DNA of 64,000 bases from Asterias amurensis (taxonomy: Eukaryota; Echinodermata; Asteroidea; Forcipulatida; Asteriidae): positions 10,007,285 through 10,071,284 of the forward strand of contig NC_092651.1 of the NCBI RefSeq assembly GCF_032118995.1, given 5' to 3'. Positions within the stretch are counted from its first letter, which is position 1; each line of letters starts with the position of its first letter. The notes below the pieces were generated by a model. The model had not been told where the DNA came from, did not search any database, and worked only from the letters and a program-made list of their open reading frames with translations. Shown one piece after another: positions 6,510 to 40,515 of the stretch. Position numbers and translations under genes: made by a program.

Positions 6510-6530
6510 AACCCCCCCCCCCCCCCCCTT
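6510..6530. repeat. Poly-C tract
   Basis: A near-pure run of C precedes the tandem array. Confidence 0.8.
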
Positions 6531-10551: not shown

Positions 10552-10787
10552 GTGAGTTCTAAGTGACGTTAGGCGACAAGAATGTGTAATAACTCGACTG
10601 CAGTCATTTTACTGCCAATTTCATCAAAGCAATTGTCTTATATACAATTTTCAGATTGTTTGCTTAATTAAAGAGTACCACATCTTAACATTCTTAATGA
10701 TGCTGTTTCTGAAAGTATCGACGAAATTATATTAGTGCCTTATTAATCAATTCTTTATGACATTTTTTTCATCCGCATTATTTGTAG

Positions 10788-17484: not shown

Positions 17485-19034
17485 ATGTTGTTGATGTTCT
17501 CGGCAAGGGTTTTCACACTCAATATTGTGCTCTCCACGGTGGTGGTGTTGTCCGGTTCGGACCAGGTTGATGTATGCACATCGACGGGGAGAGTTCGCGG
17601 CGAGACACGGGTGCTGGACGGGCGCGTTTACGAGGTGTTTCTCGGTATCCCGTACGCTGAGCCACCTACCGGACACCAGAGGTTTCGAGCACCGGTCCCG
17701 AAGGTATCGTGGGAAGGGACTCTCGATGCGGTCAACTACGGACCGTCTTGCCCGCAGGATATAGAGGATGTGTCGAGGTACTACCCGAACTATGTGGTCC
17801 GTATCCCGAAGTCTGCTCGAGAGATAAGTGAGGATTGTTTAACTTTGAATGTATTCTCTCCCGTACGGAGAGACAGAATTGGGAATGTAGCCGTGATGTT
17901 CTGGATTCATGGGGGGAGCTGCGAGACGGGGCAGGGGAGTGGGTACGACCCGTCCGCTCTGGCGTCCCGTGGCGATGTCATAGTGGTCACCATCAACTAT
18001 CGGTTGAATGTCTTCGGGTTTCTGTGCACGGACGACGAGAATGCACCGGGGAACTACGGTCTGCTTGACCAGCAGCTCGCCCTGCAGTGGGTCCATGACA
18101 ACATAGGTGCGTTTGGAGGGGATCCGACCAGGGTGACGCTTTTCGGTCAGTCGGCTGGTGGTGCCACGGCGATGGCCCACCTCTCAGCTCCGGGAAGCCG
18201 GCCTCTTTTCCACCGGGTCATCGCCCACAGTGGCATCTTCGCCGGGTCTGCCGGCCTGGAGTCCGTAGGGAAACAACTCAAAGAATACGCCAAGCGGATT
18301 GCACTCAAAGCCGGTTGTGATCACAGCGGGAACCTCTTGTTTGATACACATATGATAGTCGACTGCCTGAGGAGCAAATCGGCCCAGGTCGTACTGAAAG
18401 CTGGTCTTGAAGTGGCTAAAGAGGTGATTATCCCCATGCTGTGGCTAGCCGTCATAGACGGAAACTTCTACCCCAGACAGACTTTCCCTCCAAAAGCAAT
18501 CAGCTTCAGCCAATATGACATTATAGCTGGGATAACATCAAACGATGGATCCCCCTTGTTGGAGCTGCTCCCCTTCATAATACATAAACAAGTCAACCAG
18601 TCGACTGGACTCTCCCGAACCGACTTCGACAGACTGGTTCAGTTCTTCACCCTCTCTGACGAGACGTCAAACAACCAATTCAGATCGTTAGCCATTTATC
18701 ACGAGTACAGAGACTGGTCCGTGCTGAACAGAACTCTGGATAATCTCTACCAGATCACGAACGTCATGCTGGACGTGAACTTTCTCTACGGCTTGAACCT
18801 GGTCTTGGGCAGCATCTACGGGGGAGCCAACTCGAGGCGTATGTTCGTGTTTGATCACCGGAGCACGCCTCGTGTGAAATACCCCTGGTTGAACGGAGCG
18901 CCGCACTCGGAAGAGCTGTCCTACGTGTTTGGTTTGCCCTTCAATGGCTCAGGAATCGGGTCTCTGTTTACTGACGATGAGCGTGCATTGAGTGACCGAA
19001 TGATAACTTACTGGACTAATATTGCAAAAACTGG
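17485..19034 (+). CDS. Exon B: secreted or membrane-linked carboxylesterase ectodomain
   Basis: The first ATG of the frame (17485) gives a hydrophobic signal sequence of about 24 residues and then a full COesterase core. Landmarks are [40 protein letters not shown] and NYGLLDQQLALQWV. The nucleophile is Ser223 in GQSAG, the acidic site is Asp354 (SNDGS) and the His is His474 (APHS), so an active esterase is plausible. The choline-site Trp seen before SEDC in true acetylcholinesterases is absent, so choline esters are unlikely substrates. The exon ends NIAKTG with donor GG|GTGAGT; unspliced, the next codon is TGA. I find no anchor exon between here and 23382. With the exon at 38204 the protein would be 682 residues. 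Confidence 0.92.
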
Positions 19035-19057
19035 GTGAGTACTTAATTAACAAACCT

Positions 19058-19450
19058 GGTGCCAATTTTGTAGAGCTGCTTAGGCACAAAAAAGCAGCTT
19101 TAAGCAGCTTAGTGCATCAAAATTGTGATTGCCAGCAGAAGGTAACCAGTCAAATACAATATCATTTGTAGAATTTGTGCCTGGTATCCTGCTAATTTTT
19201 GCAAAGTACAAATTTATAAGCAACATTATCAGCTGAAGCAGCACTATTGAATTGGGCCCTGATGCGTGCCAGGGCCTAAGCACAAAACGATGCTAAGCAC
19301 AAGGAAATTACGCTTACCAGAATAAAGTTACCAGCCAAACTACCATGTCAAATGAACCCTTTGTGACTGGTACCCTTTGTGACTGTTATGCTACTTATTC
19401 CTGCTTAGCAGAAATAATATTGCATTTTTCTGCTCAAGCAACTCCATGAT
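19058..19450. mobile_element. GGGCCC/GCTTAGCACAA-type elements, two adjacent fragments
   Basis: The first fragment runs GTGCCAATTTTGTAGAGCTG to TGAATTGGGCCC (to about 19259). The second begins GCCAGGGCCTAAGCACAAAA and includes GCTTACCAGAATAAAGTTAC. Both match the element nested at 9296. Confidence 0.65.
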
Positions 19451-19621
19451 ATTGGTTTGTTCCCCCACATGTGTTCTTTAACCCGGCGGAAACATCAATT
19501 TGTAAGCGCACTTTATTTGTGTGAAGGTGTCTTGCCGAGTTTCACTATGTGGATTGGGTTTTCAGTCCCTTGACTGCGTGAGTTTTCCCTGGAATGATTC
19601 TTAGAGACTTAAACCAAACGC

Positions 19622-20050
19622 AATTTAAAGGAACACGTTGCCTTGGATCGGTCGAGTTGGTCGTTGAAAAGCGTTTGAAACCGTTTGTAATGAAATGCAT
19701 ATGGTTAGATAGATAGTTCAAAAGTATAATTTAATGATCAACACAAATTTGCCTCGAAATTGCATGGTTTTCTGTTTACTTTGCGAACTAACACGGTTGG
19801 CCAGTTATGCCTTTAAATCAATCTGAATTAGTTCATTTGGGCCAAATTATCATGGCGCTCATCGTAGAGTTAACATACAATGGACACCGGGCAGCGATTT
19901 GTTTGTCCCCAAACGACAATGCAATATTCTTTTGCCCTTTCTGTCAAAATTGGCTCTTTCTGTCAAAATTACGTCGTATTGAAATTGGTCTGCTCTTTTA
20001 CCAAATGATTGCAATATCGTTTGAGGAACAAACTAGCCAATATCTTTAAT
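19622..20050. repeat. AAAGGAACACGTTGCC-type repeat, approximate extent
   Basis: TTTAAAGGAACACGTTGCCT is followed by GGATCGGTCGAGTTGGTCGT and GCGTTTGAAACCG, a sequence I recall as a dispersed repeat in echinoderm genomes. The right end is unclear. Confidence 0.4.
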
Positions 20051-20506
20051 GTTTTTGTTGTTTTTTTCAAGTAAGAGAACCAGATCAGTTTACCCTGTCG
20101 GCCAACAAGCGCTTGCAGTCTTGTCACCATTGTACTTTTTTAACCCTTTCACACGACTGCAATTTAGCAACGGTCTCTTGCTAAATTAAAGCAAGGTTAA
20201 TATGCAATTTACAAAGTGTAACTCGTGTAAAATGACAGCAAGTGAAAAACTTGTCCAACATTGCTTCATCTAGCAAACTAGCAACCCCCCCCCCCTCCAT
20301 TCCTAATATCCATCAAGGTTAACTTTTTCAGATAACAATCTAAAAAACACTTTTGATGATTGACTGCTTATTTGTCTCCCACCGTATTAGGCGTTTTAAA
20401 AACCGGTTCAGTAAAAATGTGTTTACCTCTTTGAAAGTTAAAGATAAATGTGTAAAAAAAAAAAACGCCTTTAACGAGCTATTCATGTTTTTAAAAACGA
20501 ACCTCT

Positions 20507-21098
20507 TTAAAGGCAGTGGACATTATTGGTAATTACTCCAAACAATTATTGGCATAAAACCTTACTAGGTGACGAGTAATGGGGAGAGGTTGATGGTATA
20601 AAACATTGTGAGAAACGGATCCCTCTTAAGTAATGTAGTTTATGACAAAGATGTTATTTACACACTCAAATAGAACACTTGTTTTTGCCGAATACCAAAA
20701 GTCTGTAACACTACATACGAAGTGTGGACTTGAGAACAAAAGAGGTCCATATTAAAACACTATGTGGACCACACAGTGTTTTTTTTTTTTTACAGTGTTG
20801 AAGAATAGCCTTTATAGAACAATGTCCACAGAGTGACTGTAACATTATGTGTGGTTGTGGGTGCAGTTGTCCGTATATGTATATGGAATGATAAAAGCCA
20901 AAAAATTGCCAATGACCTAGTTTTGTGGAATTATAATACCCCCAAAGTCCTTGAAGATTGTTTTGTAAAAATAAAACCCACATTTGTAAAGTGGTTTTTG
21001 CTTCATGATGAAACCAGTTCAAGGATACCTGTACGTGTCATGTTGGCATAGTAACCCGGCTTCCTCTTGGCAAATATTTTCGGTGTCCAGTGGCTTTA
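20507..21098 (+). mobile_element. TTAAAGG TIR element, copy 5 (rearranged)
   Basis: The left 160 bp match the family (TTTAAAGGCAGTGGACATTA, GAAACGGATCCCTC). A terminal-like GGTGTCCAGTGGCTTTA lies near 21082, with unrelated sequence including a T-run in between. Confidence 0.65.
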
Positions 21099-21265
21099 TT
21101 TACTTAGGAGCAGCAGATCATTTCAAGGCATGATAAACGACACATCGGAGAGGAAATGCAAACAGTTTCACGTTATTAAATTTAGGTATAACGAATTGGC
21201 CCATGAGTTGTGTCTGCTTTCCTGAAGGAGTCATTTAAAAAAGAAAAATCACGGGCACTAGTTTA

Positions 21266-21350
21266 TCAACCTGGTTTATCAATCTGGTTTGTCAGAACCT
21301 GGTTAAATCAACCCGATTTATCAATCTGGGTAATTAACCTGGTTTGCAAC
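21266..21350. repeat. Short degenerate tandem repeat
   Basis: TTTATCAACCTGG, TTTATCAATCTGG and related 15-20-bp units repeat about five times. Confidence 0.55.
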
Positions 21351-21472
21351 TGGTAAGAACAACCCTTAAATTTTGAAAATCAAAATCCATTATAGATTTT
21401 CCTTTCCAGTAAGATTTGCGTTAACATGAAAAGTCTCTCATATGGAGGTTCTGAAAAGAACAATTGGTGTGT

Positions 21473-21525
21473 AACAACTCGACGTTTCGATCATCATGCT
21501 CTGATATGGTCTTCAGGAGAATGTT
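21473..21525. repeat. CTCGACGTTTCGATCA motif, possible retroelement fragment
   Basis: ACAACTCGACGTTTCGATCA then TGCTCTGATATGGTCTTCAG resembles the segment at 4703-4745. Such motifs are known from Penelope-like element termini; the assignment is tentative. Confidence 0.25.
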
Positions 21526-22149
21526 CGGTATCTTTGTCCGCTTCAGCTGCCCCCCCCCCCCCCCCCGCTCAATTTGGTGGATAAAAACTTATATACTTGT
21601 TCTATAACCACATTAATTCAAAGTAAAATTATTCTCAAATTGCAATGTACTGTAATTGACAGCTGCTGTATATCTAACAAAGTAAGTCTTTATTGGCATT
21701 AATTTTAAGATTGCTTCTACCAAGCGTATAATATATAATTATTCCCTTCGAATCAAACAAATAATTCAATTTTGAGCGTGTGGCACCGACGATTCGTTAC
21801 ATGCCAACGTGTGTAAGTCGGACCGAATGAGCGATCATAATTCGACAGGTGTAGTTTCGGCTTTATACAGCGGTCGAAATTGATTTTGTAAATCTGTCAA
21901 TATGAATTTGTGTTTGGTTGTTTGTTTATGTCCGACAACCCATTAAACTTGTGTCTCTCCCATGCGTCCATATGGGTTAAGTAACATTGGTCTGTTTTAT
22001 TGTAAAGGAGTAAAGCCTGCGACATTTACAATGTCCGTATTGTTTAGTTTTAGGGTTTGTGCAGCCAATGGGCAATATTTTTCTAGAAACTGTTGGAATC
22101 TATCGGCACGTTAAACTAATCAGACTTGTGGATTATAATCGAGTTCAGG

Positions 22150-22318
22150 TCTTGAACTTTGATCTGGAAGGGGCACAGCAATTTCCCCCTTGTAAGGGAC
22201 ACTTCTATGGGAAAATTGATATGTTAGTATTTGAATCTTGCAGAGGGCACCACAGCAAAAGCACAGGGCACCACGGTAGTTGCTGTGGGTGCCCTAGTTT
22301 ATTTCGAGGACGGTGAGT
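22150..22318. repeat. GGGCACC-type dispersed repeat, copy 3
   Basis: GGGGCACAGCAATTTCCCCC, GAGGGCACCACAGCAAAAGC and AGGGCACCACGG match the family at 5311, 6641 and 49290, but with more divergence. Confidence 0.5.
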
Positions 22319-23179
22319 TCAATGGCAATTAGAATTGTCCATAAGATGAAGTGAAATGCAGGTCTGAACTGTTGTCTTTTAAAAAAAAAGTATCGAAGAC
22401 GTATAGAGATTGTAGATTGTCACAGCCTAGAGTCGACGATTATGTATTAATTTATACATAACGAAATACAAGTTAAAATGTGCATCAATTACAAAAAGGT
22501 ATATATACATTACAAACTCATGTATGGTGATACCTCGTTTTCATTCGTTCAATTATTTATTAACGTATTTATACATAACGAAAAGACCATTTTAAATGTG
22601 CATCAATTAGGCCTACAAAGGGGTATACAATAACAATTAATGTATGGTGATACCTGTTTTTCATTTATTATATGAAGATTAGTTGAGGCTTGTATGAAGG
22701 TAATCTGTTTCCATGGTTATAAAGTGATAATAAATATTTATCGTACGTTGTTGTGAATACAGATAATTTCTCAAAATGACCTATAAGGCTAAAGATGTGA
22801 CGTTGATGCATCGGCCCGTTTGATTCTCCACTATCTCCCCTGAGAGTGTGCTAGACTATGACCCTCGAAACCCCACACTTTGTTTTCAGGATCGACGTGG
22901 TTCAGCACACCTTACAAATAATTACACGCCAATCAGAGGTTAAACTCTCTTCCTAGTCTAATGTAGTAGTGGTGGAATGTTATGCATTTCGGTGCGGTGA
23001 AGGAAAAAAAAGATGATGACGTTTTGAAAGTTGGCCCAGTGGTAAGCTCTACAAAAAAAAAATCGCCAATCACTGTTGGTATGTGCTGTATGTACGTAGA
23101 CATTGCATGTGTGTATGCAGTTGGTTCGAAGAGTTGGTATAGCAATGACACGCCGAACACTTACAATTTTGTAAAACCT

Positions 23180-23342
23180 ACTTTTCCAGGTAGATGAGTA
23201 AGAATTTGTTTTGCTTTATGTTATACTGCCGCGGGTTAGATTTTCGGAATTCGGGGGACTTCTCATCAGTTGTGAAAAGAACTGTCCTGCTCATTAACTA
23301 CTATCTGGGCGGAAGGCAGAACATTGACCGGGTCTACTACAT
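23180..23342 (+). repeat. CTGCCGCGG repeat upstream of exon C
   Basis: It contains TTTTCCAGGTAGA, ATACTGCCGCGGGTTAGA, GTGAAAAGAACTGTCCTGCT and CTGGGCGGAAGG, matching copies at 34464, 40055 and (reverse) 54660. It ends about 40 bp before the exon C start codon, so it may supply promoter or 5' UTR sequence. Confidence 0.65.
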
Positions 23343-23381
23343 TTACTTTCCAGGACTGCAAGGTACGGCACCTACCAAACA

Positions 23382-24865
23382 ATGACTTTGGTTGGACACA
23401 TGCTGGTCGCCATTTTGTTAATGGTCAGTGTGGATTCGGTGGTCATCAGGACCTCAACGGGATTAATACGAGGAGTGAAACATGAACTAGACGGAGTCCA
23501 GTTTCATCGGTACCTTGGCATCCCTTATGCCGAGCCGCCCGTGGGGCCACTGAGGTTCAGAGACCCCGTTGCAAAGTCACCCTGGAACTCGGTCCTCAAC
23601 GCAACTTCCTACGGACCATCCTGTCCACAGGATATCCAAGCTGTGTCCAAGTTCTATCCTGATTATATGGTGAAGATTCCAGACAGGGCTCGAGAAATAA
23701 GCGAGGACTGTTTAACTTTGAATATCTTCGCACCAGTTACGGACACAGTTACCGGTCTGGCGGTGATGTTCTGGATTCATGGCGGGAGCTTCGAGACGGG
23801 GCAGGGGAGTGGGTACGACCCGTCCGCTCTGGTGACCCGTGGAGATGTCATAGTGGTCACCATCAACTATCGGTTGAATATCTTTGGGTTTCTGTGCACG
23901 GGCGACGAGAATGCACCGGGGAACTACGGTCTGCTTGACCAGCAACTCGCCCTGCAGTGGGTCCATGACAACATAGAATCGTTCGGAGGGGACCCGACCA
24001 GGGTGACGCTGTTTGGCCAGTCAGCTGGCGGTGCTTCGGTTACGCTTCACCTCTTCGCCAATAAGAGCAGGTCGTTGTTTCAGCGAGCAGCGGCACACAG
24101 CGGCTACCGTCACCCCTCCGTATACGCCAGTGGAAGAGGTGGATGGCTCGGAAAACGCGCAAGGGACATCGGCGAGGAAGCGGGGTGCGACTCGGGGTCC
24201 ACAAACTCCGAACTTGTACAATGTCTCCGGGAACGTCCGATGGAAGATGTTCTAGCGGCCGGTCAAGCCGTGTCTGCCGCGGTGGCCTCGCACATTTGGT
24301 TCCCGGTCTTGGATAACAACATGATATCCTTAACCACTTCTCAGTTGCATTTGCAGCACGACTTCATGGTCCTCTTAACATCTGGGGACGGTTCCGTAAT
24401 TTTGGAAGTCATTGATACCTATTTACGTGGTATGAATGCATTTAATGCAACCCTTGGTTTAACGGAAGACGAATGGGACAGCTGGCTCACTATGACCTAC
24501 AGCTCATTACAGGTAACAAAACTTGCTACAGCCTTCGAGTACATGGACAACACCTTGCCAGACCCCAACTTTGCCCGAATGCAAGCCATGACAGAGATGA
24601 TGATGGAGCAGAGCTTTATGCTTAGACTCAACCCATTCTTGACACTCTTGCCCAACTCGACAACCGTTCACATGGGCGTGTTTGATCACCGTTGCGAGGC
24701 TAATGACAGGTACCCGAGTCTCAACCAAGTACCGCACGGAGAGGAGATACCATTTTTGTTTGGATTGCCTTTTAACGGTTCTGGTATGGGCGCTGTCTTC
24801 ACAGACGATGAAAGGGATCTCAGTGGACGTGTCATATCTTACTGGTCAAACTTCGCCAAGAGTGG
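23382..24865 (+). CDS. Exon C: carboxylesterase ectodomain with a GC splice donor
   Basis: ATG at 23382 begins an 18-residue signal sequence, then a COesterase core close to B. It has [41 protein letters not shown], Ser214 in GQSAG, Asp336 in SGDGS and His452 in VPHGEE, so it is a likely active esterase. About 214 bp around the oxyanion and NYGLLDQQLALQWV region are almost identical to B. The core ends NFAKSG at the family donor site, but the bases are GG|GCAAGT, a GC-AG type donor with an otherwise strong consensus. Without splicing the frame runs 10 more codons to a stop at 24896. No anchor exon is seen before 35110. With the exon at 38204 the protein would be 660 residues. Confidence 0.92.
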
Positions 24866-24898
24866 GCAAGTATTGTTTTATCCTTTGATGCTTTGATG

Positions 24899-25180
24899 GG
24901 AGTGTCGTGGCAGAGTGCTTAAGAGCACCAAATTCAAACTCTGGTGTTTCTGATCAGTAGAGTGTGGGTTCGGTTCTCAGTCGTGACATTTTTGTCCTTA
25001 AGCAAAACACTTAACTATTGCTTTGTCCTTCGAATGGGGCGTTCAGCCGTTGGTCCCGTATGTTAAAAGAGAAGGGGTTCGTCTCGGTGTTCCTGGTTTG
25101 ATTTGCAGCATATTGCGCTCAGCACTTTGTAAACCATCACATGGTGCTATGTGCAAGGAATAGATCTCATAATTCAAAAC
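24899..25180 (+). mobile_element. tRNA-Leu-derived SINE
   Basis: The head has an A-box-like GTGGCAGAGTGCTTAAGAGC, a Leu-type variable arm and a B-box-like GGTTCGGTTCT. It is followed by a non-tRNA body with TCCTTAAGCAAAACACTTAA and GCCGTTGGTCCCGT. It starts just after the exon C frame closes. Confidence 0.75.
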
Positions 25181-26100
25181 GTATAGTCCCATCTATACCG
25201 TGCGGGCAAGTACTGTGTCTAAATACGTGTGCTAGGGGCTTTACACACAAACGAAGCCTGAGCTGAAGTCAAATCTGTAATTTCGAAAGTTAAGGGCCGG
25301 AAAAGCTCCCTCTATAGTCGAACGTCTCGGCTATATAGTCGAATATCTCGGCCATCCAACCGGGCTGTACGGCCTAATCCACAGCCATGCAAACGACTGG
25401 CAAAATTACAAAAATGTTTGCGTAATTTTATTCTTTTTGTATTCTGGGATACGACACGAGAGGGCCGTCTCACGATCTACGAGTGATGTACGGTCGCCAT
25501 TTTTGAATCGATGTGATGTGTTAATAAAAAACAAAATATGAATTTTGTGTTGAAATCTCATTTAATACAAACCGATACTGTGGTTAATAATGTACAGATG
25601 TAGGTCATACCTTTAACGAAAGTTACAGTAAAAAGCTAGTTATATTTCCTACAAAAATCGAGTTATGAATAATGCACCATTTCTATAATTCAAAATGGCT
25701 GAGCGGATAATCCACTTAAAGTTGTACGTAATCTCCATAGCTCACAAGTCTGGGAATTGTAAAGCGATTGAGGCCTTTGGTTGATATCCAGCCATCCTTC
25801 AGATCAGGGGTTTTGTTCATGGTGATAATCACATTGTAAATCTTAGATGTTTTTATGTAACTCAAAGCCGGCATTCATCCTTTCCGCAAATCCGGGTTAT
25901 CGAAGAATAATCCTGCACCTTTATTTTATGTATTCATTAATTTCAAGATATTTGTACATGATACAAATATCAGCACAACTGCTGTTTGACATCATGATCA
26001 TATGTAAAGTTCGAACATAAAAAAAAGGTTGTATACAGCACAAACAGTTTGACAAATAATTAAGACAGCTTCATAAAGAATGCTGATGAATTATTGCTTG
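25181..26100. other. Intergenic, nothing recognised
   Basis: A short AGTCGAACGTCTCGGCTATA / AGTCGAATATCTCGGCCAT duplication lies near 25316-25355. No anchor exon for C is visible. Confidence 0.5.
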
Positions 26101-26540
26101 TTGAAGTCACATCTTAACCTTTTTAATACTGAGATAACAAGGAGCCATTCCAACAGCTTTATTCCTCGTACTGCATCTCTTTAGAACTCCAGCTTATTTT
26201 CCCTCGACAGCTTAAAACATTTTTTTTATTTGGTGTGTACAAAATGTGAACCTTTGGAGTATAATTTAATCTCTTTAGAATAAAGACTTTTGCTTTTAGG
26301 CATTATTTAAATATTGTGGACAGCACCAAAATTTGAAATAATTGAGACAGGTGCATCAAGAATGCTAATACCTTTACTTCCTCCGACAATTTAAAACATT
26401 CATTAAAAAAGTTACAATTTATTAAGACAGATGAACCAGAAATCATGCATAGGAATACTGCTTAATTTCCTCAAACGAGTCGGAACTGAGCGGTTTTTGA
26501 CGCCTTTTCTTGAGCCGTCTGTAATAAAGCACCAGCAATG
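26100..26540 (+). mobile_element. LINE 3' end remnant
   Basis: A frame at about 26150-26220 reads NSFIPRTASL, then a stop, then NSS, resembling the PRTxRLWNSLP motif near the end of non-LTR reverse transcriptases. TTAAAACATT segments repeat downstream and the block ends with TAATAAAGCACC. It is degraded, with stops in frame. Confidence 0.5.
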
Positions 26541-26949
26541 AATGAAGGAGAGCTATTTATACAGCCTCCTTGCGTTTGCAAGTCAGTTCAAGATAAATGT
26601 GGAAGCCACAATATTGATTATTGTAAGAGCTTCACTCGGGTCCATCAAAAATCTGATCTAAATTGTACAGCAGTGATTTCAAACAGAATCTGTATTGGGT
26701 GTAGTAAACAAAAAAGTAATGGTTTGACTGGATGCGGTCTGGTTTGCATGTCGCCCTCTACGACCAGTTACAACCAACCCCGGTAACCACGCACCACACA
26801 AGTCATTCAACTGATATGGCCCCTGAAGCCCTTTGCACTCAACTGCTGTATGCACCGTGGCATCAAATCACCCGTGACAAACACATAATAGAGAAAAGGT
26901 GTTCAGTTGCTCTAATCGACATTTTTCTTGAATACTGGAGAAAAAAAAC
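26541..26949. other. Intergenic, nothing recognised
   Basis: A short open frame is present but has no recognisable homology and no sign of being an exon. Confidence 0.4.
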
Positions 26950-27262
26950 TTAAAGGCACTGGGCACTCAATTATAACAAAATAATTGTCAGCATAAAACT
27001 TACTTTGTAATGAGCAATAGAGAATTGTTGATAGTAAAAAAAAAAAAACATTGTGAGAACCGGCTCCCTCTGAGGTAACGTAGTTTTTGAGAAAGGCGCA
27101 ACTTCTCACTCAAATATTAAAATACTTCTGGCCTGAAGCCTTTTATAGGCATCTGGAAACGCACACATTTGTGCAACGAGGGTGTTTTTTCTGTCATCAT
27201 TCTCTTGCAACTTCAATTACCAATTGATTCCAAGTTTTCACAGATGTGTTATTTTATACATC
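26950..27262 (+). mobile_element. TTAAAGG TIR element, copy 6 (right end lost)
   Basis: TTAAAGGCACTGGGCACTCA, CGGCTCCCTCTGAGGTAACG and TTTTTGAGAAAGGCGC match the family. The element fades after TTCACAGATGTGTTATTTTA. Confidence 0.8.
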
Positions 27263-28252
27263 CATGGAGGAATAATTATTCCTCCATGATACATCATACA
27301 TGAATACACGAATACACGAAGTGAGAATACAGTGCGCTTAAAGGTGTAGTCATGTCTCGCTTGACCTCGTTGTGATGCCACTTGCCGTTATCAGTTAGCC
27401 TATGGAGGCCTACCGTTTCTCTATGTAGCTTCCCGTTGGTCTGAGGTTTCAGATATATATAAATTAAGGTAGATTTATGTGATGAGAAGTGAGCTGACAT
27501 TGCAGTATGAAGCTAAGGGATTGTTGGAGAGAATAGTTATTTCTGATTTGTTTTCCTGCAATCTAAACCCTGGCATCTGAATATGAAATACTCAATATTT
27601 ATGACAAATTTGTTCGTTCGTGTTTCTCCCTGTTGAACTTCGCTTATTTTTTTAAAGCAAATTTGTATTTCTTGGCAAAAAATGAAAAACCTTGGAGAAA
27701 TTGGGCCCTGAAGGTTGAAATGATGTATAGTATTATTCCCTTTCAAGAAGTGAAATCGATGAAAAGCAAAATTAGCCCGTGGGAGAGTCATCGAAGCTAA
27801 TTTCCTCTCTGAGATTGAAATGCCAGTTTATTGCTATACCGCAAATCATCATCTCTCATGGCATTCCAAAATGAGCTTGAATATCTATGTGTTTCTGCAT
27901 GGGAGGGGGTGGGGGATGCCAGTGGGCAATGAAAAGTGATGACCGCGGGGAAACTAGTGTAGTTTTGTTTGGATTTTTGTCTCTCCCTTTTTGTTTAGGG
28001 GGGGGGGGGGTTGGCATCCGGGATTCAGTCGTACAGGTGCGTCGTACTCGTCTGGGTTTAATTGGCAGGTGTTTTTTAGTGGGCCGGAGTGAGGGACTTG
28101 ACGGTGGGGGAGAGTTGAACTTGTCTGGTAAACGACTCCCAAGTGTTACGATGTAGACCAATAAAAGTCTCGTGTTCGCATAGCGGCATGTAACAATGAG
28201 TATAGGTTAATATGAACGATGTGGGGGTAATATATAGGCCCGATGGAGAGAT
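27263..28252. other. Intergenic, G-rich runs, nothing coding
   Basis: Simple G-rich tracts lie near 27900-27920 and 28001-28012. A TTCCTCCATG / CATGGAGGAA hairpin lies near 27261-27290. No exon is supported. Confidence 0.45.
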
Positions 28253-28619
28253 TTAAAGGGAAGTTACACGTTTGGTAGGTACGCAAAACAAACAAATATT
28301 TACTTAAAACTGACTTGGTAACGAGCATTGGAGAGCTGTTGATAGTATAAAACATTGTGATAAACGACTCCCTCTGAAGTAACGTAGTTTTTGACTAAAA
28401 TAATAAAAGACTTCTAGCTAGAACTAGAAGTCTAGTATTCCTATCTGAAAGCACACAAATTCGTCCAACAAGGGTGTTTTTACTTTCATCATTTTCTCGC
28501 AACTTCGATGACCAATTGAGCCCAAATTTTCACAGGCTTGTTATTTTATGGTTATGTTTGGATACACCAAGTGAGAAGATTGGCCTTTGACAATTACCAG
28601 ACGTGTACAGTGCCTTTAA
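28253..28619 (+). mobile_element. TTAAAGG TIR element, copy 7 (diverged left end)
   Basis: The interior GTAACGAGCATTGGAGAGCT and CTCCCTCTGAAGTAACGTAG and the right end GTACAGTGCCTTTAA are clear. The left end TTTAAAGGGAAGTTACACG is diverged. It shares a duplicated CTTCTAGCTAGAA palindrome with copy 9. Confidence 0.8.
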
Positions 28620-28977
28620 GACCCGTTCCTGTTTCCAAAATAATGTTTGATTGATAACACTTGAACCGCATGTTCTGTATGTAAACCATAATTTATTTTT
28701 TTGCATTATGAAAGCTGATACTGATTATAAGTTCAGACAGATAGGCTTTCCTGAATCCTCAGGAGTTTCGGTTTGAAATGCCAAAGTCTACAAAATAGCT
28801 CTCCCCACACACGCACACACACACGGAGACAATTTACTTATTATTTGTTATTGCCAAAAAAGAAACCACGCGAAAAAGCGTATGCAACCACTCAGTAAAA
28901 AAAAGAAAACAGGCCTACCAGTAATTCAAATGAGACTGCCCTACCCTAATTTACTTATCACTGGGTAGTTTGATGGT

Positions 28978-29848
28978 ACATTCATATGGTGGCCCTGAAG
29001 GGACATCGCATATCGCAAACGTGTGCGCATACGTATGCAATGTCGTGAAACAATTCGCAAATATGTGCGCACACGAATGCAATGTCGTGAAACAATTCGC
29101 GAATATGTGCGCACACGTATGCAATGTCGTGAAACAATTCGCAAATATGTGCGCACACGTATGCAATGTCGTGAAACAATTCGCGAATATGTGCGCACAC
29201 GTATGCAATGTCGTGAAACAATTCGCGAATATGTGCGCACACGTCTGCGAATATTATTTGCGATGTCGTGAATTTTATTGCATACCATGTTGCATACCTT
29301 TGAATAAAATGTCTAATGATCTGGGGGGTTTCTTTCCAACAGTGAGATAAGCGGTAGTCATTGCAGCAGTAGTCTTTGTTGTGAGGCAAGCGAGGCGTGT
29401 GGTCGTCCTTGACCTGGTGCCAAGTTCCTGGGTATACACATGCTTTACAGAGGGAGCCTGCTGTAGCGCCACAGTACTCCCTAGATCGGTAACAAATTAT
29501 CCACAACTATGACATCATCCTAATGGTATGCAACATGGTATGCAATAAAATTCACGACATTGCAAAACAAATCGCACTCGTGTGCGCACATATTCACGAT
29601 TTGGTTCACGAAATTGCATACGTGTGCGCACATATTCGCGATTTGTTTCACGACATTGCATACGTGTGCGCACATATTCGCGATTTGTTTCACGACATTG
29701 CATACGTGTGCGCACATATTCGCGAATTGTTTCACGATATTGTATACGTGTGCGCATATATTCGCGATTTGTTTCACGACATTGCATACGTGTGCGCACA
29801 CGTTTGCGTTATGCGATGTCCCTTCGGGGCCACCATACATTCACGATG
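28978..29848. mobile_element. Foldback element with inverted arms of 42-bp tandem repeats
   Basis: The outer ends are ATGGTGGCCCTGAAGGGACA and its inverse TGTCCCTTCGGGGCCACCAT. The left arm carries about five 42-bp units (AATGTCGTGAAACAATTCGC...) and the right arm carries matching units in reverse. The inner ends TTGCATACCATGTTGCATAC and their inverse flank a single-copy loop at about 29301-29523. Because 42 is a multiple of 3, several frames stay open on both strands; these are not genes. Confidence 0.88.
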
Positions 29849-29875
29849 AATTTACTCTTCCCAAACCTAAGAACT

Positions 29876-29942
29876 TCCCCCCCCCTTTTTTTTTTGGGGG
29901 GGGGGGATGGGGTGGCAAATGTTCTGAGCGAGGAAGGGGGGA
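29876..29942. repeat. C/T/G homopolymer cluster
   Basis: Runs of C, T and G in succession, likely hard to assemble. Confidence 0.7.
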
Positions 29943-30007
29943 GGGGCGGTCTTACAGAATCACTTGCTATAAACAATTAAATAGAACTGCCACTTGTAAT
30001 AGACCAG

Positions 30008-30152
30008 GGGTCGATTTCACAAAGAGTTAGGACTCGTCTTATCTCGAGTTTAGGATTAATCGTAAGGTCTGCATGTTATACAGTGCAGGGTTGGGACTCG
30101 TCCTAAGTCCTAAGATTAGTCATAAGTTAGGAAGAGTTTTGTGAAATCGACG
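30008..30152. mobile_element. TCGATTTCACAAAG short TIR element
   Basis: The ends TCGATTTCACAAAGAGTTAG and TTTTGTGAAATCGA form an inverted repeat, with internal inverted TAGGACTCGTCTTA motifs. A smaller relative lies at 39357. Confidence 0.7.
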
Positions 30153-30549
30153 GCAGGTCTCTTTAGAACGACATTTTAGGTGCTTCACAAACCTCCATTC
30201 CTTGTTTTTATCTTGCTTCCATCATCATAGAGTAAGGCTTCCATAAATCACAACAAGTCCTGAGGCACATGTACTTGGTGTACAAATTAAGAGGTTCCGA
30301 TTTGTAAACCATCGACCCTCTTTCGCTTACAAACGACTTTTTGTTTATCATAGACGGCATTGGAGTAATGTGGAATGCGTTTCTACTTCTTTGTATTCAA
30401 GGTGTTCGGTTCAAATAGGTTGAGCATAATTCAACTTACTGGCACATTATTAGCGTTGAACCTGATCCAATAGGTAGGTGTTGAAAGGTTGAGGGGCATA
30501 GTGAGCTGCCGGAAAGGGCACAGGGTCAGGTGTATTCAGACGCCTCATG

Positions 30550-31445
30550 AGAGATCCCGTCTGATTGATACGGGATCCCATTGGGATCGTGTTGGGATCC
30601 TGTGGGATCGTATTGGGATCCACTGTGTGATCGTTGGGATCCATTGGGATCATATTTGGGATCCGTTGAGATCGTATCGAGGAGATCCACTGTGGGATCG
30701 TCGGCCATTGGGATCGTATTGTGATCCTGTGGGATCGTATTGTGATAAACTGTGGGATCATTGGGATCCATTGGGATCATATTGGGATCCGTTGGGATCG
30801 TATCGAGATCCACTGTGGGATCGTCGGCCATTTGGATCGTGTTGTGATCATGTGGGATCGTATTGGGGTCCACTGTGGGATCGTCAGGATCCATTAGGAT
30901 CATATTGTGATCCTGTGGGATCGACTGTGGGATCGTCGGGATCCATTGGGATCGTTTTGGGATCCTGTGGGATCGTATCGAGGTCCACTGTGGGATCGTC
31001 AGGATACATATGGATCGTATTGGGATCCACTGTGGGAATGTTGGGATCCATTGGGATCGTATTTGGGTCCGGTGGGATCGTCCGGATCCACTGTGGGATC
31101 GTCGGGATCCATAGATAGGGATCGTATCGAGATCCACTGTGGGATCGTCGGGATCCATTGGGATCGTATTGGGATCCGGTGGGATCGTCGGGATCCTCTG
31201 TGGGATCGTCGGGATTCATTGGGATCGTATTGGGATCCACTATGGGATCGTCGGGATCCATAGGGATCGTATTGGGATCCGGTGGGATCGTCGGGATTCT
31301 CTGTGGGATCGTCGGGATTCATTGGGATCGTATTGGGATCCACTATGGGATCGTCGGGATCCATAGGGATCGTATTGGGATCCACGGTTGGATCGTATCG
31401 AGATCGACTGTAGGATCGTCGGGATCTATTGTGGGATCGTATAAA
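30550..31445. repeat. Minisatellite, 21-bp unit with 42-bp higher-order period
   Basis: About 900 bp of TGGGATCGT(A/C)... GGGATCCAT/ACTG units. The alternation of GGGATCGTAT and GGGATCGTCG, and of CATT and CACTG, gives a 42-bp period. Long open frames on both strands are a by-product. Confidence 0.92.
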
Positions 31446-32350
31446 CTCTACCATTACATGTAGACGTCTTTGTTGGATTCCCTGATGAATATCGTGGTTT
31501 TTATCGTTAGCCCAAAGAACGAGACCGGACGAATTTGTCTGAATGTCTCGCTTTGGCTGCATTTTAGCCAAATACAACAATATATAATTATACGTTTGGT
31601 AATGACAATTATTATGGGCAATAAAAACAAACTTTTGAACAAAGGCATATAGCCTAAATCGTGCAGATTTGGATAGCATATTTTTGAGAAACTTTTCACT
31701 TCGAAGTACTGCGGTCATGGACAAAGAAGCCACCAGTGATCACCCAAAAATTAAATCTGTGCAGCGTTACTGGCAGTAACGCTGCACAGATAGTGTCTTA
31801 TTGCGATCATTCTTCCTGCGAGGACATAACCGCTCCAGATTTTAAGAAATATCTCAGAAAAGCTACCACCTTTTGAAATACAATTCTTTACAGATTAGTT
31901 TTATCATTGCTCTATGTTTTTTTTAAATCTACAATACAACAATATAGGTTTGGATCAAAAAGTTGGTTTCATGGTTTCATGAATTAGAAGTATACAATCC
32001 ATCCCTTAGAATCTATATTTTGGCAAATATTACTCCCCAAAAACAGGCAATAAGGCCTAAGCCTTTTTTTTTATAAGATATCTGTTGAAAGTGTTAACAT
32101 TTAAATGGCTATACGTTGAAGTAATTATGCGTGTTTCGTGATAAGTAGATGTAAAAAGCCCACGAATGCAACGGTATTGATACGGGCAGTCTGACACCTT
32201 ACGATCTCACTTGATACCCCGTACTCGAAACGAAGTCTCCCGCAAGACAAAATACTACTCCATTTTCACTCTCAGATTTCATCGCGTGTACCATTAGAGA
32301 AAGGACGTGGTTTTCTCTCTATCTCTATCTCTCAGGTCAATGGCAATGCT
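31446..32350. other. Intergenic with one perfect hairpin
   Basis: Apart from the hairpin at 31755-31791 I see nothing recognisable. Confidence 0.45.
31755..31791. repeat. Perfect 17-bp stem-loop
   Basis: ATCTGTGCAGCGTTACT, then GGC, then the exact reverse complement. Its function is unknown; it could be the collapsed ends of a short inverted-repeat element. Confidence 0.85.
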
Positions 32351-32725
32351 TTAAAGGCGCGGGACACCGTTGGTAATTGTCAAAGACCAGTATTCTCACT
32401 TGGTGTATCCCAACATATGCAAACAATAACAAATCTATACAATTTTGGGTTCAATTGGGCATCGAAGTTGCGAGAGAATAATATAAAAACACCCTTGTCA
32501 GTGCACACAATGTGTGTGCTTTCAGATGCACAATAAAAGGTCGCAGGCCTGAACATTTTTGAGTGAGAAATTACTTCTTTCTCAAAAACTACTTTACTTC
32601 AGAGTGAGGCGCTTCTCCCAATGTTTATACTACCAACAGCTCTCCTTTGCTTTTTACCAATAAGTTGTTATGCCAACTATTATTTTGATGAATTATTACC
32701 AATAGTGTCCAGCCAGTGCCTTTAA
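32351..32725 (-). mobile_element. TTAAAGG TIR element, copy 8
   Basis: The ends are TTTAAAGGCGCGGGACACCG and CCAGCCAGTGCCTTTAAA, with a reverse-oriented interior (TCTCACTTGGTGTATCCC). Confidence 0.85.
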
Positions 32726-32891
32726 AGCTGTATCTAAATGCACTTTGCTTGGAGTGAATAGATCGATGCATCTAATTCTGTACCATATTTTTGCACATGC
32801 ATAATATATCAGGATGATGCAAGCAGCTAACATTACCGATATGTACTTCATCTTCTTAACTTGTGTTTGCTAAAAATAGTGATTATGGAGT

Positions 32892-33222
32892 TTAAAGGCA
32901 CTGTGCAGGTTGAAGTTGTCAAAGACCCGTGTAACTTGGTGTATCCCATTATAAGCATAAAATGTTAAGCCTGTGATGAAAGAAAAAACACCCTTGTTGG
33001 ACGAATTTGTGTGCTTTCAGATAGGAATACAAGACTTCTAGCTAGAAGTCTTTTAATCTTTTAGTGAAAAATTACCCCGTTTCTCAAAAACTACGTTACT
33101 TCAGAGGGAGTCGTTTCTCACAATGTTTTATACTATCAACAGCTCTCCAATGCTCGTTACCAAGTCAGTTTTTAAGTTAATATTTGTTTTGAGTAATTAC
33201 CAATCATGGACCTTCCCTTTAA
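32892..33222 (-). mobile_element. TTAAAGG TIR element, copy 9
   Basis: The ends are TTTAAAGGCACTGTGCAGG and GGACCTTCCCTTTAA. The interior CTTCTAGCTAGAAGTC is shared with copy 7, which makes these two a subfamily. Confidence 0.82.
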
Positions 33223-34463
33223 GTAGCTCTTTCAAATTTGGCGGATCACGTACACGGTATATCCAAACGTGTCGTGTACGTACACGATAAGAGATATTTT
33301 GTTGTTATTGATGTGGCGGCAACACGCTTCCCTACCCAAAGGATTCGGTGAACCCGATTTAAAGAAAACAACAGGGACAGGCCAGGGCCTGTGGAAAGAC
33401 TGACGAACAAAACAAACAACATGACATTTCAGATCGCTTCTGTTGACATAATCCTCTTTTAAAATAGATGGTGAATATAGAACGATTACAGTTTCCCTGA
33501 TTTCCAAACCAGCATTGAAGCACATCATTGTGTAGGCAGCATATTGTAATAGTAGTATGCACTGATGTTGTCTGATTTTGGAGCATCAAAAGTCACTGTG
33601 GCTCATTTTGTCCATAATAATGTACATAAAAAAATATAGAAGCGTAGTAAACTCCGCCCCCCCCCCCCCCCAACTGATAAAGCCCAAACTTTCACAGGTT
33701 TGTTATTGCATGTATGGTCTATCACACAAAACATAAACACGCTCTACGACTGTTTTGTCGGCTATATACCAATCTTGTATAATACCTTTAAAAGGGAATG
33801 TACAGTGCTAACACACATCGGTGTATGGGTAAAATAAAATATAAAAAAAATAATATATTCTTTATCCCCGATGCAAATTTAACATCTCTTATAGGGAATG
33901 TATTTGTACTCAAGCCTTTTAAAGCTTTCTTTAAGCTTTCCTTGGGATGGGGCGATTGCGTTTGAATAAACGCTTGAATATTTTCCTCATTTTTTTTATC
34001 TGGCAGACCCGAATTACATTGAATTCCTCCGGCTGAGCTAATTTGGAATTCAAATTCCTTGGGGGTATCCATGTGCGTGTTAAATTGCATGTCTTCATGA
34101 ATATTATGCACAGTGTTAAGGATATCCGCTTCTGTATCACACAGGATTTTTACCTTAATTTTTTTTAAGGGAACAATGTCTCAAAACTGTCGTGTCAGGT
34201 GAATAATAATTTCTCAGGACGTGTGGCACCGATGCCGTCTCTCACCAAGTAGGCCTACTCCAGAATGAGGGGTTTGCAAAAACCGGAATTGGGAAAATTG
34301 CCAATGGTGCACGCGCACCATTTGAGAAATCTGTAGTAGCTTTTTTTTGTATTTGATTGAATGAATGAACACTTCTGAGTGAGAGAAGAATCTAAACCAC
34401 GTTTAAGTGGATCCTAGTAGTGGAATTTATTTATTCTTTATACTATTTGGTGTGTATCTACTT
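33223..34463. other. Intergenic upstream of exon D
   Basis: An ACGTACAC / GTGTACGT hairpin lies near 33247-33283 and a poly-C run near 33656-33671. No exon is supported. Confidence 0.5.
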
Positions 34464-34745
34464 GCCAGGTAGAGTATGTTTTTTTAGAGAACTGTCTTGC
34501 TATATATTCTACTGCCGCGGATTAGATGTTCTCGGATATCTTCGGGAGTCTTAATTCTCAGTTCTGAAAAGAACCGCCTGCTTTTTAACATCGGCTATAT
34601 GATCGTTTTTAACTGCACTACAACGGATTGAGTTCTTAATTTGTCAACGTTTCGACTCTTGCTCTATAGTCATTCCTATTATTCACGGCAGTGGAATATC
34701 TTTGAGAGTGGCGAGGGGTGGCACTTCTTCTTATCAACGGACTAC
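34464..34745 (+). repeat. CTGCCGCGG repeat upstream of exon D
   Basis: CTTGCCAGGTAGAGTATG, TTCTACTGCCGCGGATTAGA, CTCAGTTCTGAAAAGAACCG and a terminal ACTACTACT match the copies at 23180 and 40055, in the same orientation relative to the esterase exon that follows. Confidence 0.7.
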
Positions 34746-35109
34746 TACTACACTGCATAGCGTCTTCAACTCTCAACGTGGTGCAAACTAGTTTGCTAGT
34801 GACCCCTATGTGTAATTTGCCGTAAGGCTTTTGTGTAGCGTTAGTGTATTGTCGCCCTGCTGTGTATTGTACGACTTGGTCTGTTTATGCTCTGCTGGAG
34901 AAATGAAATTCCATAATTTCAATAGCTTCTAAAGTTTTGTTGTGTAGGCTATGACTCGGTCAGCAAGCACGCAATTTACTATTGAATAGAGTGCTCTTTT
35001 GTCATTAATATTACCCATTCATGCATCGAACTACAAGTGCAACTACGTTAGCGGTACCTGTACGAGTTCGGGTCAGTAATTACAGGCGTGTTTCGTCTTG
35101 TCATTAAAA

Positions 35110-36602
35110 ATGTTCTCACTCGAAATGGCGGTGCTCGCGTCTTTGGCGTGCATGTCGCTTATGGTTATTCCGATTGCTTGTGTCGTTGGCCCGATCGTGA
35201 GTACGACTTCAGGGGATCTTCGAGGTGTCCAACAAGATCTTGACGGGACTGATTACTGGTTTTTTAAGGGGATACCCTACGCAGAGCCACCGACCGGGGA
35301 GTTGAGGTTTAGTGCCCCCGTGGAAAAGGCAGCGTGGGACGGTACGTTCAACGCGACCAAGTACGGACCGTCGTGTTGGCAAGACATCACGGGTGTGGCC
35401 ACATTCTACCCTGATTACGTCGTGCAGATACCAACGGAAGCCGCCGTGCTTGATGAAGATTGTCTGTCACTAAATGTGTACACTCCGGTGGATGTTAATA
35501 GCAATGCGTCCGGGCCCGGTCTGGCTGTTATCTTTTACATACATGGGGGGAGCTACTTGACGGGTCAGGGGAGTGGATACGACGGGTCCGCCCTGGCAGT
35601 TCGCGGTAATGTCGTCGTGGTCACTATCAACTACCGGTTGAATTTCTTCGGGTTCTGGGGTACAGGTGACGAGAACGCTAAGGGGAACTACGGTCTGCTC
35701 GATCAGCAGTTAGCGCTGAAGTGGGTCAACGAGAACATCGCTGCCTTTGGGGGCGACCCGAGCAGGGTGACTCTCTTCGGCCAGTCTGCAGGTGGCGATG
35801 CTGTGACCCTTCACCTCTTCGCTAACGCCAGTCGCCCGCTCTTCAGACGTGTCGCTACCCACAGCGGACCCGTTGCGTCCACAAGCATGCTGAAGCCTAC
35901 AAGCGAGATTGAAGATCTCACCACCCGTATCGGGAAGGCTACGGGGTGTAACTATAAAGATACTTCAAGGCTTCTCGAATGCTTACGGGATGCTGGCAAG
36001 ACGCCCGAGGAGCTCTTCGCACACGGCGCTGCTGTGGCCGACAGCATCAGCCCGTTACCCCTTGTGTACATCCCGTTCATTGATGACGTCTTCTTGTCTT
36101 ATGATTTTGACCGTCCGGACTTGTTTCATGATCTCCTGGTCCTGCATACATCCGGCGATGGGTCGGGCATTCTAGACTCGGGGGCTGTCCCCGCGTTCAA
36201 CCCTATGGATGGAATAACACAAGAGCAATTTGACCATGTACTGCGTTTGTTTGGGCTGGGAGAGTTGGGCAATCTCGCGGTTACTCGTGCGTACACGAAG
36301 CAGGACCAGGATGGAATCTCTCGTATGCAATCTCTCGCAGATGTCATGCTGGACTACAACTACCTCGCTAGCCTGTCCAGGCTACTGAAAGGGCTGCCGC
36401 CTCTGGGGTTGTGCCATGCGGCTATATTCGACCACCGGAGTGACGCGGATGACAGGTATCCACAACTCAACCTGGTGCCTCATGGAGAGGAGTTATCCTA
36501 CGTGTTTGGATTGCCTTTCAGTAAGGCGTACAGCTTCACTGATGATGAGAGGTGGCTCAGTCATCGGGTCATGACCTACTGGTCAAATTTTGCCAAGAGC
36601 GG
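35110..36602 (+). CDS. Gene D exon 1: carboxylesterase ectodomain
   Basis: ATG at 35110 (a second in-frame ATG lies five codons on) begins a signal sequence of about 24 residues. The COesterase core has GIPYAEPPTG, SCWQDI, DEDCLSLNVYTP, YIHGGSYLTGQGS and NYGLLDQQLALKWV. The triad is Ser226 (GQSAG), Asp350 (SGDGS) and His458 (VPHGEE), so it should be an active serine esterase. The usual choline-site Trp is missing. The exon ends NFAKSG, donor GG|GTAGGT, phase 2; unspliced, the next codon is TAG. The next compatible exon is 1.6 kb downstream. Spliced together they encode 663 residues. Confidence 0.93.
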
Positions 36603-38203
36603 GTAGGTTCAATATTCAACTTCAGTTCAGTTCATCTCCACTTTATAATTTCCCCAATGAAAAGTGTGCAGGAGGTCAATTTGACCATGCTTAATAGAAG
36701 TACAGACAAGCTTGAGCCGAATTGAAATTGGGTATGCACACAAAAAGTTCATTGCAAACTCAATAATACAAGGGCACAACTTTTTAAAAATTCACCCTTG
36801 TGGACCATTCCATTGTCCCTGCACTTTACAGTTTCCCATAGACTTGATATACATATTTACTTGAGGAGCATCCCAGTCTTGAGAATTTCCATGAGGAGTC
36901 CTTTTGTTACTCAGTTTTGTTCTGCTTGGTCTTGATGAGGTACCAAATAATATGAACATATTATTGTGTACCTTTGTTGTAATACCTAAATTGTATGTGT
37001 GTGTTGTTGTCATTAAAGGCAGTGGACACTATTGGTAAATACTCAAAACAAGTATTAGCATAAAACCTTGCTTGGTAACAAGTAATGGGGAAAGGTTAAT
37101 AGTATAAGACATTTACGAAACGGCTCCCTCTGAAGTGACGTAGTTTTTGAGAAAGAAGTAACGAATTTGATTTCCAGACCTCATATTTAGAATTTGAGGT
37201 CACGAAATCAAGCATCTGAAAGCAAACAACGTCGTGTGACCAGGTTTTCACAGGTTTGTTATTTTATGCATATGTTGAGATACACCAAGGTGAGAAGACT
37301 GGTCTTTGACAACTACCAATAGTGTCCACCGTCTCATAACTTATCATTTTAGAACGACTCTCACATGATTCCAAACATATTGAATGTAAAAGCAAATTGT
37401 AAAAAATAACGCTGGATAAAAATAACTTTCCCACTTATCGCCATATGAGCGAACAGGTGTAACTTCATCTATTACAGACAAATAAGACAAAATCAAGCAT
37501 TTTTTTTGCCGTTAATGTTGAATTTGTTTTTTTTAACTCGGGCGATGCATCTTTAACTAAACCCATTCGTGGGTTGCGCGACGCACTTGTAAGGTCGAGG
37601 CCAGAGTCATGTAAAGCGGTTAAATATTGTGGAATCGATTTCAGTTCTGCCCCTACACTGTTTACTTAGCCATGTCCCAAGCGGTTCATTCCCAGAACAC
37701 TGTTTGGTGATGCACAACTAAAGTTCGCCTGGGGTAGAGGTTTATTAGCCTTAACATTGCCAGCCGTACTGTACCGTGACATTACTGTTAAGTTCCTCCA
37801 TGGTGTTATGTGCAGTCGGAGTACGAGGTTGCAAAAGCACATCGACCCCATATTGTGACGATGTCACTCTAGTTCTCGCACGTGTCCACGCCTTAAGGCT
37901 CGTGCCGCTTTCGTTTTTAGGTAGTACTTTTTACCGCCATGGTCAAGGCTGACCGTACTGCTTGCTCGATACTTTCTGGGTGTGACATGGGTGTGGCAGA
38001 TGTGAATATTTCTCAAACACGTCCGCGCGCGCGTCCGTGGCCCACACCCTTTTGCATCCTGAAGCAGATGTTGGTCGATCAAACCAAAATGCTTCCGCGG
38101 TTGCTCGATAGTAACACAGGGTCAAATTTCTCCAAATCCCTTCCCGTGAAAGTATGAATACAAATGCCTGCAATTTTGTATTTTGTTTTTGTTTAATAAA
38201 CAG
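36603..38203 (+). other. Gene D intron (1.6 kb, phase 2)
   Basis: Donor GTAGGT, acceptor AATAAACAG|A. It contains one TTAAAGG element at 37013-37336 and otherwise unrecognised DNA. Confidence 0.88.
37013..37336 (+). mobile_element. TTAAAGG TIR element, copy 10
   Basis: TTAAAGGCAGTGGACACTAT, CGGCTCCCTCTGAAGTGACG and ATTTGAGGTCACGAAATCAA match the family. The right end is ACCAATAGTGTCCACCGTCT. Confidence 0.87.
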
Positions 38204-38702
38204 AGATCCGAACGTCAACCCAGATGACCCCCCGAGTGTCAACCTGACGTACTGGCCAAAGTACGGTGACGCTGAGAAGTACCTGCTCATCCAACTGGCC
38301 GACGACACACCGGGTGAAGCATACCGCCAGGATAAGGTCATGTTCTGGACTGACTACCTCCCCAATCTCCGCCGGGCCGCCGTGGAGTCTTGCCCCGACC
38401 AGCCGGACGGCTCGGCCACCCCGCTCTGCGAGGAGGTGTTCATCGGCGAAGGCCTGGGCTTCAAGCTGACGCCGGACCAAGCAGAGTCACTGATTGAAGT
38501 CTTCTTGTTTGTGATCGTTGCTCTGCTTGCGCTGATTATTATAGTATTCGGTGCGGTACTTGGGTACAAGTTTAAGTACAAAGAAAACAAGACTCACTCC
38601 AAATCGAACGGGCTTGTCAAGACCAACGGGTCGCTGCAGAAGAACTCGGCGTTCGAAGTGAACGAAGCTTTTTACTCCGAATCAGAAGATACGAAAATGT
38701 AA
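38204..38702 (+). CDS. Gene D exon 2: ectodomain end and membrane anchor, possibly shared by B and C
   Basis: The first base completes Gly, then it reads DPNVNPDDPPSVNLTYWPKY, a standard end of the cholinesterase-like fold, with VMFWTDYLPNL as the last helix. The motif CEEVFIGEGLGFKLT precedes a membrane segment (about 38505-38565, IEVFLFVIVALLALIIIVFG). A tail of about 45 residues follows, basic then acidic, ending ESEDTKM. It fits gene D exon 1 in phase and would also fit exons B and C, for which no private anchor exon is visible. Whether B and C use it needs transcript data. Confidence 0.92.
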
Positions 38703-40054: not shown

Positions 40055-40515
40055 TATAGGATTTGAGGCATTGCATGGTGGGGTATCAATATATATTGGT
40101 TTGCGGTAACACCATGTGTGTATCTACTTGCCAGGTAGAGTTGTTCTTAGGGAACTGTCTTTCTTTATTCTACTGCCGTGGAGTAGATAATCGGAGGTTC
40201 GGGAAACTTCTCAGTTCTGAAAAGAACTGTCCTGCTTTTATAACTATTACCAGGGCGGATGGTATAGAAATTAGACTGGACTACTACTTTAGCTTATAGG
40301 ATCGTATTAACTGTACTATTTTGACTGAGTTGTTCTTAGGGAACTGTCTTGCTTTATTCTACTGCCGTGGAGTAGATAATCGGAGGTTCGGGAAACTTCT
40401 CAGTTCTGAAAAGAACTGTCCTGCTTTTATAACTATTACCAGGGCGGATGGTATAGAAATTAGACCGGACTACTACTTTAGCTTATAGGATCGTAATAAC
40501 TGTACTGCCGCGGAG
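40055..40515 (+). repeat. CTGCCGCGG repeat with a 189-bp tandem duplication
   Basis: The region starts TGAGGCATTGCATGGTGGGG. The unit GAGTTGTTCTTAGGGAACTG... at 40138 is repeated almost perfectly at 40327. Both hold ATTCTACTGCCGTGGAGTAG and CCAGGGCGGATGGTATAGAA. No esterase exon follows this copy. Confidence 0.85.

Follow-up and report, generated by a model that had tools for sequence, protein, structure and literature searches.

Three esterase first exons that may share a single fold-end and membrane-anchor exon in the sea star Asterias amurensis

Clusters in which alternative first exons precede common downstream exons are known from several gene families. In the UGT1 cluster of vertebrate UDP-glucuronosyltransferases, tandem similar first exons each carry a signal peptide and the substrate-binding part, and a single downstream set of exons adds the C-terminal part together with the membrane anchor; in the GCNT2 cluster, three variable first exons, alike and of nearly equal length, precede shared exons, and the clustered protocadherins combine variable first exons with common exons and show gene conversion between neighbors (passages on these clusters in PMC1885805). 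Here we analyze a candidate locus of this kind in a stretch of 64,000 nucleotides from the sea star Asterias amurensis (hereafter the window; NCBI RefSeq assembly GCF_032118995.1, contig NC_092651.1, positions 10,007,285 to 10,071,284 of the forward strand), where three exons with esterase cores (B, C, and D) are followed by one exon (L) with the end of the esterase fold and a membrane segment. In anatomy the locus matches the UGT1/GCNT2 type, with differences in detail. UGT1 belongs to a different enzyme family, has four constant exons, and its splicing is established; gene conversion is described there as not prevalent apart from dog, whereas a conversion-like tract links B to C. GCNT2 encodes a glycosyltransferase with two constant exons and described transcripts, and in the clustered protocadherins, whose proteins are cadherin-like, each cluster has three constant exons and over a dozen first exons (same passages of PMC1885805). 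In the same superfamily as B, C, and D, the silkworm carboxyl/cholinesterase (CCE) gene CCE011a/b produces two esterases by alternative splicing in the opposite geometry, the N-terminal 62 residues being common and the remainders different (PMC3017765). No shared-exon esterase locus and no description of the present cluster appeared among the matches listed from the open-licence PubMed Central (PMC) literature.

All four exons lie on the plus strand, and their coordinates as given in the original prediction were borne out on re-reading of the sequence. Exon B (17485–19034), an open reading frame, ends at the donor TGG/GTGAGT (Pfam COesterase, E = 1.4e-120), exon C (23382–24865) at the GC donor TGG/GCAAGT (E = 5.1e-124), and exon D (35110–36602) at the donor CGG/GTAGGT (E = 2.9e-114). 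The GC donor of C is a detail absent from the earlier description. Each of the three was said to have its own signal peptide and esterase core and to stop at the same fold position in phase 2, and this agrees with what we found: the N-terminal 12-residue hydropathy is signal-peptide-like (2.25–2.59), the Pfam matches all run to profile position 472–473 of 515, and a motif of the pattern N-F/I-A-K-S/T-G precedes the phase-2 end of each exon. Exon L (38204–38702) continues with D-P-N, Trp-Pro, and Phe-Trp; then come a membrane segment of strong hydrophobicity (hydropathy 3.39 over the best 19 residues), a short tail, and a stop. B, C, and D all join to L in frame. In the D + L protein, L starts at about residue 499, and the alignment with solved cholinesterases crosses the junction (best chain 6emi_A, query residues 29–552), so that the fold-end residues fall within crystallized cholinesterase chains. 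By these matches B, C, and D are members of the carboxyl/cholinesterase family (COesterase). All three have GQSAG, the GxSxG nucleophile elbow, and at the acid position of D an Asp aligns to the Glu of cholinesterase. True cholinesterases carry a Trp that binds choline, located in the first disulphide loop. This Trp is without a counterpart in the alignment of D, and there is no Trp in that stretch of B or C; we therefore do not classify the three as true cholinesterases.

We lean toward the view that B, C, D, and L form a UGT1/GCNT2-type variable-first-exon cluster within the carboxyl/cholinesterase family. B, C, and D would be alternative first exons of one locus, each with its own promoter, its own signal-peptide-like start, and a different esterase ectodomain. 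A transcript from B or C would read through the downstream first exons, which would be skipped, and its phase-2 donor would then join the acceptor at 38204 (predicted junctions 19034 to 38204 and 24865 to 38204), with L supplying the fold end, the membrane segment, and the short tail that all three would have in common. Promoter choice would thus determine which of three esterases is displayed on a common anchor; promoters, splicing, and surface display are here inferred from the sequence. A more inclusive proposition, that three distinct membrane esterases arise from alternative first exons on one fold-end/anchor exon, that this is the first UGT1-type carboxyl/cholinesterase locus as far as searched, and that the cores exchange by gene conversion and the shared exon is held back, seems to us evenly balanced between true and false. 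If the locus works in this way, a further enzyme superfamily, in a further phylum, has come independently to diversification by alternative first exons. Unusually, the splice junction would lie inside the catalytic fold, so that the shared exon must pack against three diverged cores. It would also show how tandem copies can survive the loss of their last exons, and would make the choice of ectodomain on a common tail testable in this sea star or a relative.

The sharing of L had been proposed in the original prediction, and four observations still speak for it: B and C are the only two of 14 cores without a fold end before the next core, two genome-wide probes found no private last exon for them, their cores are open and constrained, and a relative on contig C6 that has lost its membrane segment keeps the fold end. 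The common phase-2 position, taken earlier as a further hint, carries no weight, because the same junction recurs in all eight relatives that we read (A, F, E, C6a, C6b, and three esterases on contig C12). It looks like an old family intron. Among silkworm CCEs, the intron conserved most widely (45 of 69 CCEs) is likewise in phase 2 (PMC3017765), at a position that may or may not be the same as that of the junction here.

The claim that only one exon supplies the fold end holds for the region downstream of B, C, and D, where L is the sole such exon found on the plus strand before the minus-strand genes of the cluster. It does not hold for the window as a whole, which contains four other fold-end segments (that of gene A and three on the minus strand), all assigned to other genes. 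We searched for private fold-end exons of B and C with profiles, tblastn, and genome-wide probes, which detect exons homologous to the family in the present assembly (491.5 Mb in 23 contigs, the window lying on C4), and examined a surrounding region of 164 kb. The reported lack of a Trp-Pro, Phe-Trp, and hydrophobic signature in 19035–23381 and 24866–35109 was reproduced by profile scans of both strands. A last-exon profile returned only the five known segments of the window, the next best match having E = 0.63; when each member was left out in turn, all five were recovered (E = 9.6e-26 to 8.2e-8), and the best nonmember had E = 0.65 or weaker. An enlarged profile found 13 members at E < 1e-3 in the 164 kb and nothing better than E = 4.9 in 19035–35109. 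Applied to the C12 esterases, a small separate set, it recovered the fold ends of two of three (E = 1.6e-6 and 3.2e-6) and detected none for the third, which was examined with 1.5-kb flanks. A frame-tolerant tblastn search of 19035–23381 and 24866–35109, a check of the kind proposed earlier, gave a best score of 23.9 bits, inside the noise (best of each of 20 shuffles, 20.4–25.4).

The genome-wide probe with L gave 16 matches: L itself, three on C6, two on C22, nine in the C4 cluster that go with its other cores, and a weak, unassigned one on C12 (E = 0.34). With the last exon of C6b as the probe there were 12 matches and the same picture. Neither probe revealed an orphan last exon near B or C; these probes score best candidates only, both missed the known last exon of gene g5, and they are less sensitive than the profile. 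In the layout of the 164-kb cluster, a fold-end exon comes between the core and the next one on its strand for 12 of the 14 esterase cores, B and C being the only exceptions (some boundaries are approximate, those of second cores especially). The introns of B, C, and D contained no last-exon relic, and the scattered short similarities within them were taken for dispersed repeats.

B and C are diverged yet open and constrained, and do not have the appearance of young debris. The B, C, and D frames have no stop up to the donor. Identity among the three cores is about 50% over their whole length and falls to about 40% when the conversion tract is left out; pairwise synonymous differences are near saturation (B–C 0.63, the conversion tract included; B–D 0.71; C–D 0.75), and nonsynonymous differences are 0.34, 0.38, and 0.33, respectively. 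We simulated neutral decay with an assumed 0.1 indel per substitution. At 0.02 substitutions per site, B remained intact in 9 of 400 runs and C in 12 of 400, and at 0.05, 0.1, 0.2, and 0.4 substitutions per site neither was intact in any of 400. Something completes B and C, unless their last exons were lost very recently and twice.

Several observations weigh against sharing, and we take them together with the explanations that they favor. Some concern the search itself: homology searches would not see a private last exon unrelated to the family, and the interval between C and D contains tandem arrays at 29.0–29.8 and 30.6–31.4 kb, so that misassembly is possible. Tandem arrays are places where assemblies can collapse. 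B and C might thus have private fold-end exons that are absent from the assembly or too diverged to detect. We regard this as unlikely, since the 164 kb contain no N, the sensitivity tests recovered 5/5 last exons in the window and 2/3 fold ends on C12, two separate losses would be needed, after B and after C, and the genome-wide probes showed no orphan copy elsewhere.

Another point is that the donor of C is GC where the relatives of C have GT. This would suit recently dead first exons whose last exons have been deleted, and a clean deletion, a likely outcome of unequal exchange in such an array, leaves no relic. The open frames of B and C, with the low survival in the decay simulation even at 0.02 substitutions per site, mean that both losses would have to be recent, and we consider this history quite improbable. 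We give slightly less credence to B and C simply ending early as soluble or truncated proteins that lack the fold end. Read-through at the C donor would add nine residues past the last Gly before a stop, and B meets a stop right at its donor, as such proteins might; against this, the fold end aligns inside the crystallized domain of solved cholinesterases, both splice donors are kept, and C6a retains its fold end in an exon that has no membrane segment (best 19-residue hydropathy 0.91). C6a having lost the membrane segment and kept the fold end, the fold end appears to be needed. Scanning 8.3 kb revealed no separate membrane segment for C6a, and its product may be secreted.

The splice sites, scored with approximate consensus frequencies, give a mixed picture. 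The donors rank high: among 4086 plus-strand GT sites, 22 equal or exceed the score of the B donor and 16 that of the D donor, and among 2442 plus-strand GC sites 18 do so for C (each count including the donor itself), the GC donor being otherwise consensus-like, intronic bases included. The L acceptor is weaker (score 5.3, rank 229 of 3366 AG sites), and also to be set on the opposing side is an acceptor-like site at 23334–23353 (plus strand), 28 nt 5′ of the ATG of C, which outscores it (9.7, rank 17 of 3366), so that the B donor could splice there. D too has an upstream acceptor-like site (4.2, rank 380), weaker and not far below that of L; B has none. The site before C is the strongest among the best upstream sites of 12 cores, the other 11 ranking 144 or weaker, and no comparably strong upstream site precedes the nearest relatives of C on C6. 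C may have a 5′ leader exon that uses this site, or the site may compete with B-to-L splicing, or it may be due to chance (by the AG density of the window we estimate about 76 AGs in 12 × 120 bases and about 0.4 sites of that rank among them). That B splices to it (19034 to 23354) to make a two-core B-C-L protein, like the five two-core genes next door, is the least probable of these alternatives: the phase fits and the B-C frame is open for 1020 codons, but all five two-core exons of the cluster have a fold end before the second core, which B-C would not, and the signal peptide of C would sit internally. Between B and D there are also 14 AATAAA and 9 ATTAAA motifs, where a transcript could end early; we found the AATAAA counts uninformative.

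A repeat of about 140–190 bp occurs at 23207–23343 and 34450–34589, upstream of C and D, and at 40138–40506. The copies upstream of C and D were considered as a shared promoter element of about 140 bp and rejected, because copies also lie downstream of L (two in tandem, 98% alike) and weak pieces near 54.3–54.8 kb; the repeat was therefore taken as dispersed. The dispersed repeats are reminiscent of sea-star sequence.

The history of the exons also bears on whether L is shared. Bases 17893–18164 of B pair with 23763–24034 of C (both plus strand) in a conversion-like tract with 253 of 272 bases identical, a score that none of 5000 column shuffles reached. The B–C synonymous difference is 0.10–0.13 in three windows inside the tract and 0.54–0.88 in windows clear of it. 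With the tract removed, the best core tree has B as its deepest branch and unites C, D, C6, and C22. A group of B + C + D alone was rejected (approximately unbiased (AU) test, P = 0.010), while 36 of the 105 topologies tested were not. The nearest relatives of C are the C6 pair (57% overall, 51% outside the tract), and L pairs with the last exon of C6b, the two alternative placements being rejected (AU test, P = 0.034 and 0.027). The first exons B, C, and D are thus old paralogues with relatives that have private last exons sitting among them. This grouping of C6 and C22 among B, C, and D is unfavorable to sharing, as the three are not one young exon family, and a set of one-to-one genes with later exon loss is also a fair history. 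In one scenario, complete copies moved from a shared locus to C6 and C22; in the other, two of a set of one-to-one genes lost their last exons, and L came to their rescue. Sharing is the outcome of both.

If L serves three cores, slower change in L could be a sign of it, and here the support is weak. Against its sister, the last exon of C6b, and with C22 as the outgroup, L has 5 changes to 22 (P = 0.0015), and in the same comparison the D core has 36 to the 38 of the C6b core (contrast with L, Fisher P = 0.0065). None of five other outgroups, however, gave a significant difference (5:9, 8:9, 4:6, 7:8, and 3:7), which again tells against sharing. Compared with C22, L showed no difference with A, E2, g2, and g3 as outgroups (11:8, 6:8, 8:6, and 9:10), and the D core was slower than the C22 core with three of four outgroups. 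The count of 5:36 for L against C22 with C6b as the outgroup was discarded because C6b is the sister of L.

The relatives used above are arranged as follows. C6a, the upstream copy, and C6b lie at C6:13972055–13986796 and derive from a recent tandem duplication, their cores being 98% alike. Gene A (2663–11649, plus strand) would consist of three exons at about 2663–3993, 10405–10551, and 10788–11649, with limits predicted from the sequence and a fold end and anchor of its own. In the two-core gene F/E (48260–58574, minus strand), core 1 is followed by an exon with fold end 1 and core 2, and fold end 2 and the anchor then make up the last exon, as the exons are presumed to join. There are five two-core esterase genes in the cluster, at 48260–58574 of the window (minus strand) and at C4:10070561–10138939, all apparently laid out as F/E. 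In the second core of F/E, the frame changes at 50690–50900 (minus strand), in a stretch that is open in g2, g3, and g4; the lesion may be genuine or may stem from an error in sequencing. At the catalytic serine, A (2663–3993) has the motif GHDVG and the second F/E core (49509–50873) has GHGSG, which suggests non-enzymatic, perhaps adhesion-like roles for both. At C4:10132449–10132796 (minus strand), an extra partial last exon of g5 lies next to the complete one; no core belongs to it, so that it forms a spare fold-end/anchor piece. Contig 23 has a cytochrome oxidase I (COX1) gene whose score is highest under the echinoderm/flatworm mitochondrial code (508 bits; code 4, 493 bits; code 5, 483 bits), as fits a sea star. 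Elsewhere in the genome, two further COX1 matches at C5:658874–660214 and C5:675294–676634 are likely nuclear copies of mitochondrial DNA.

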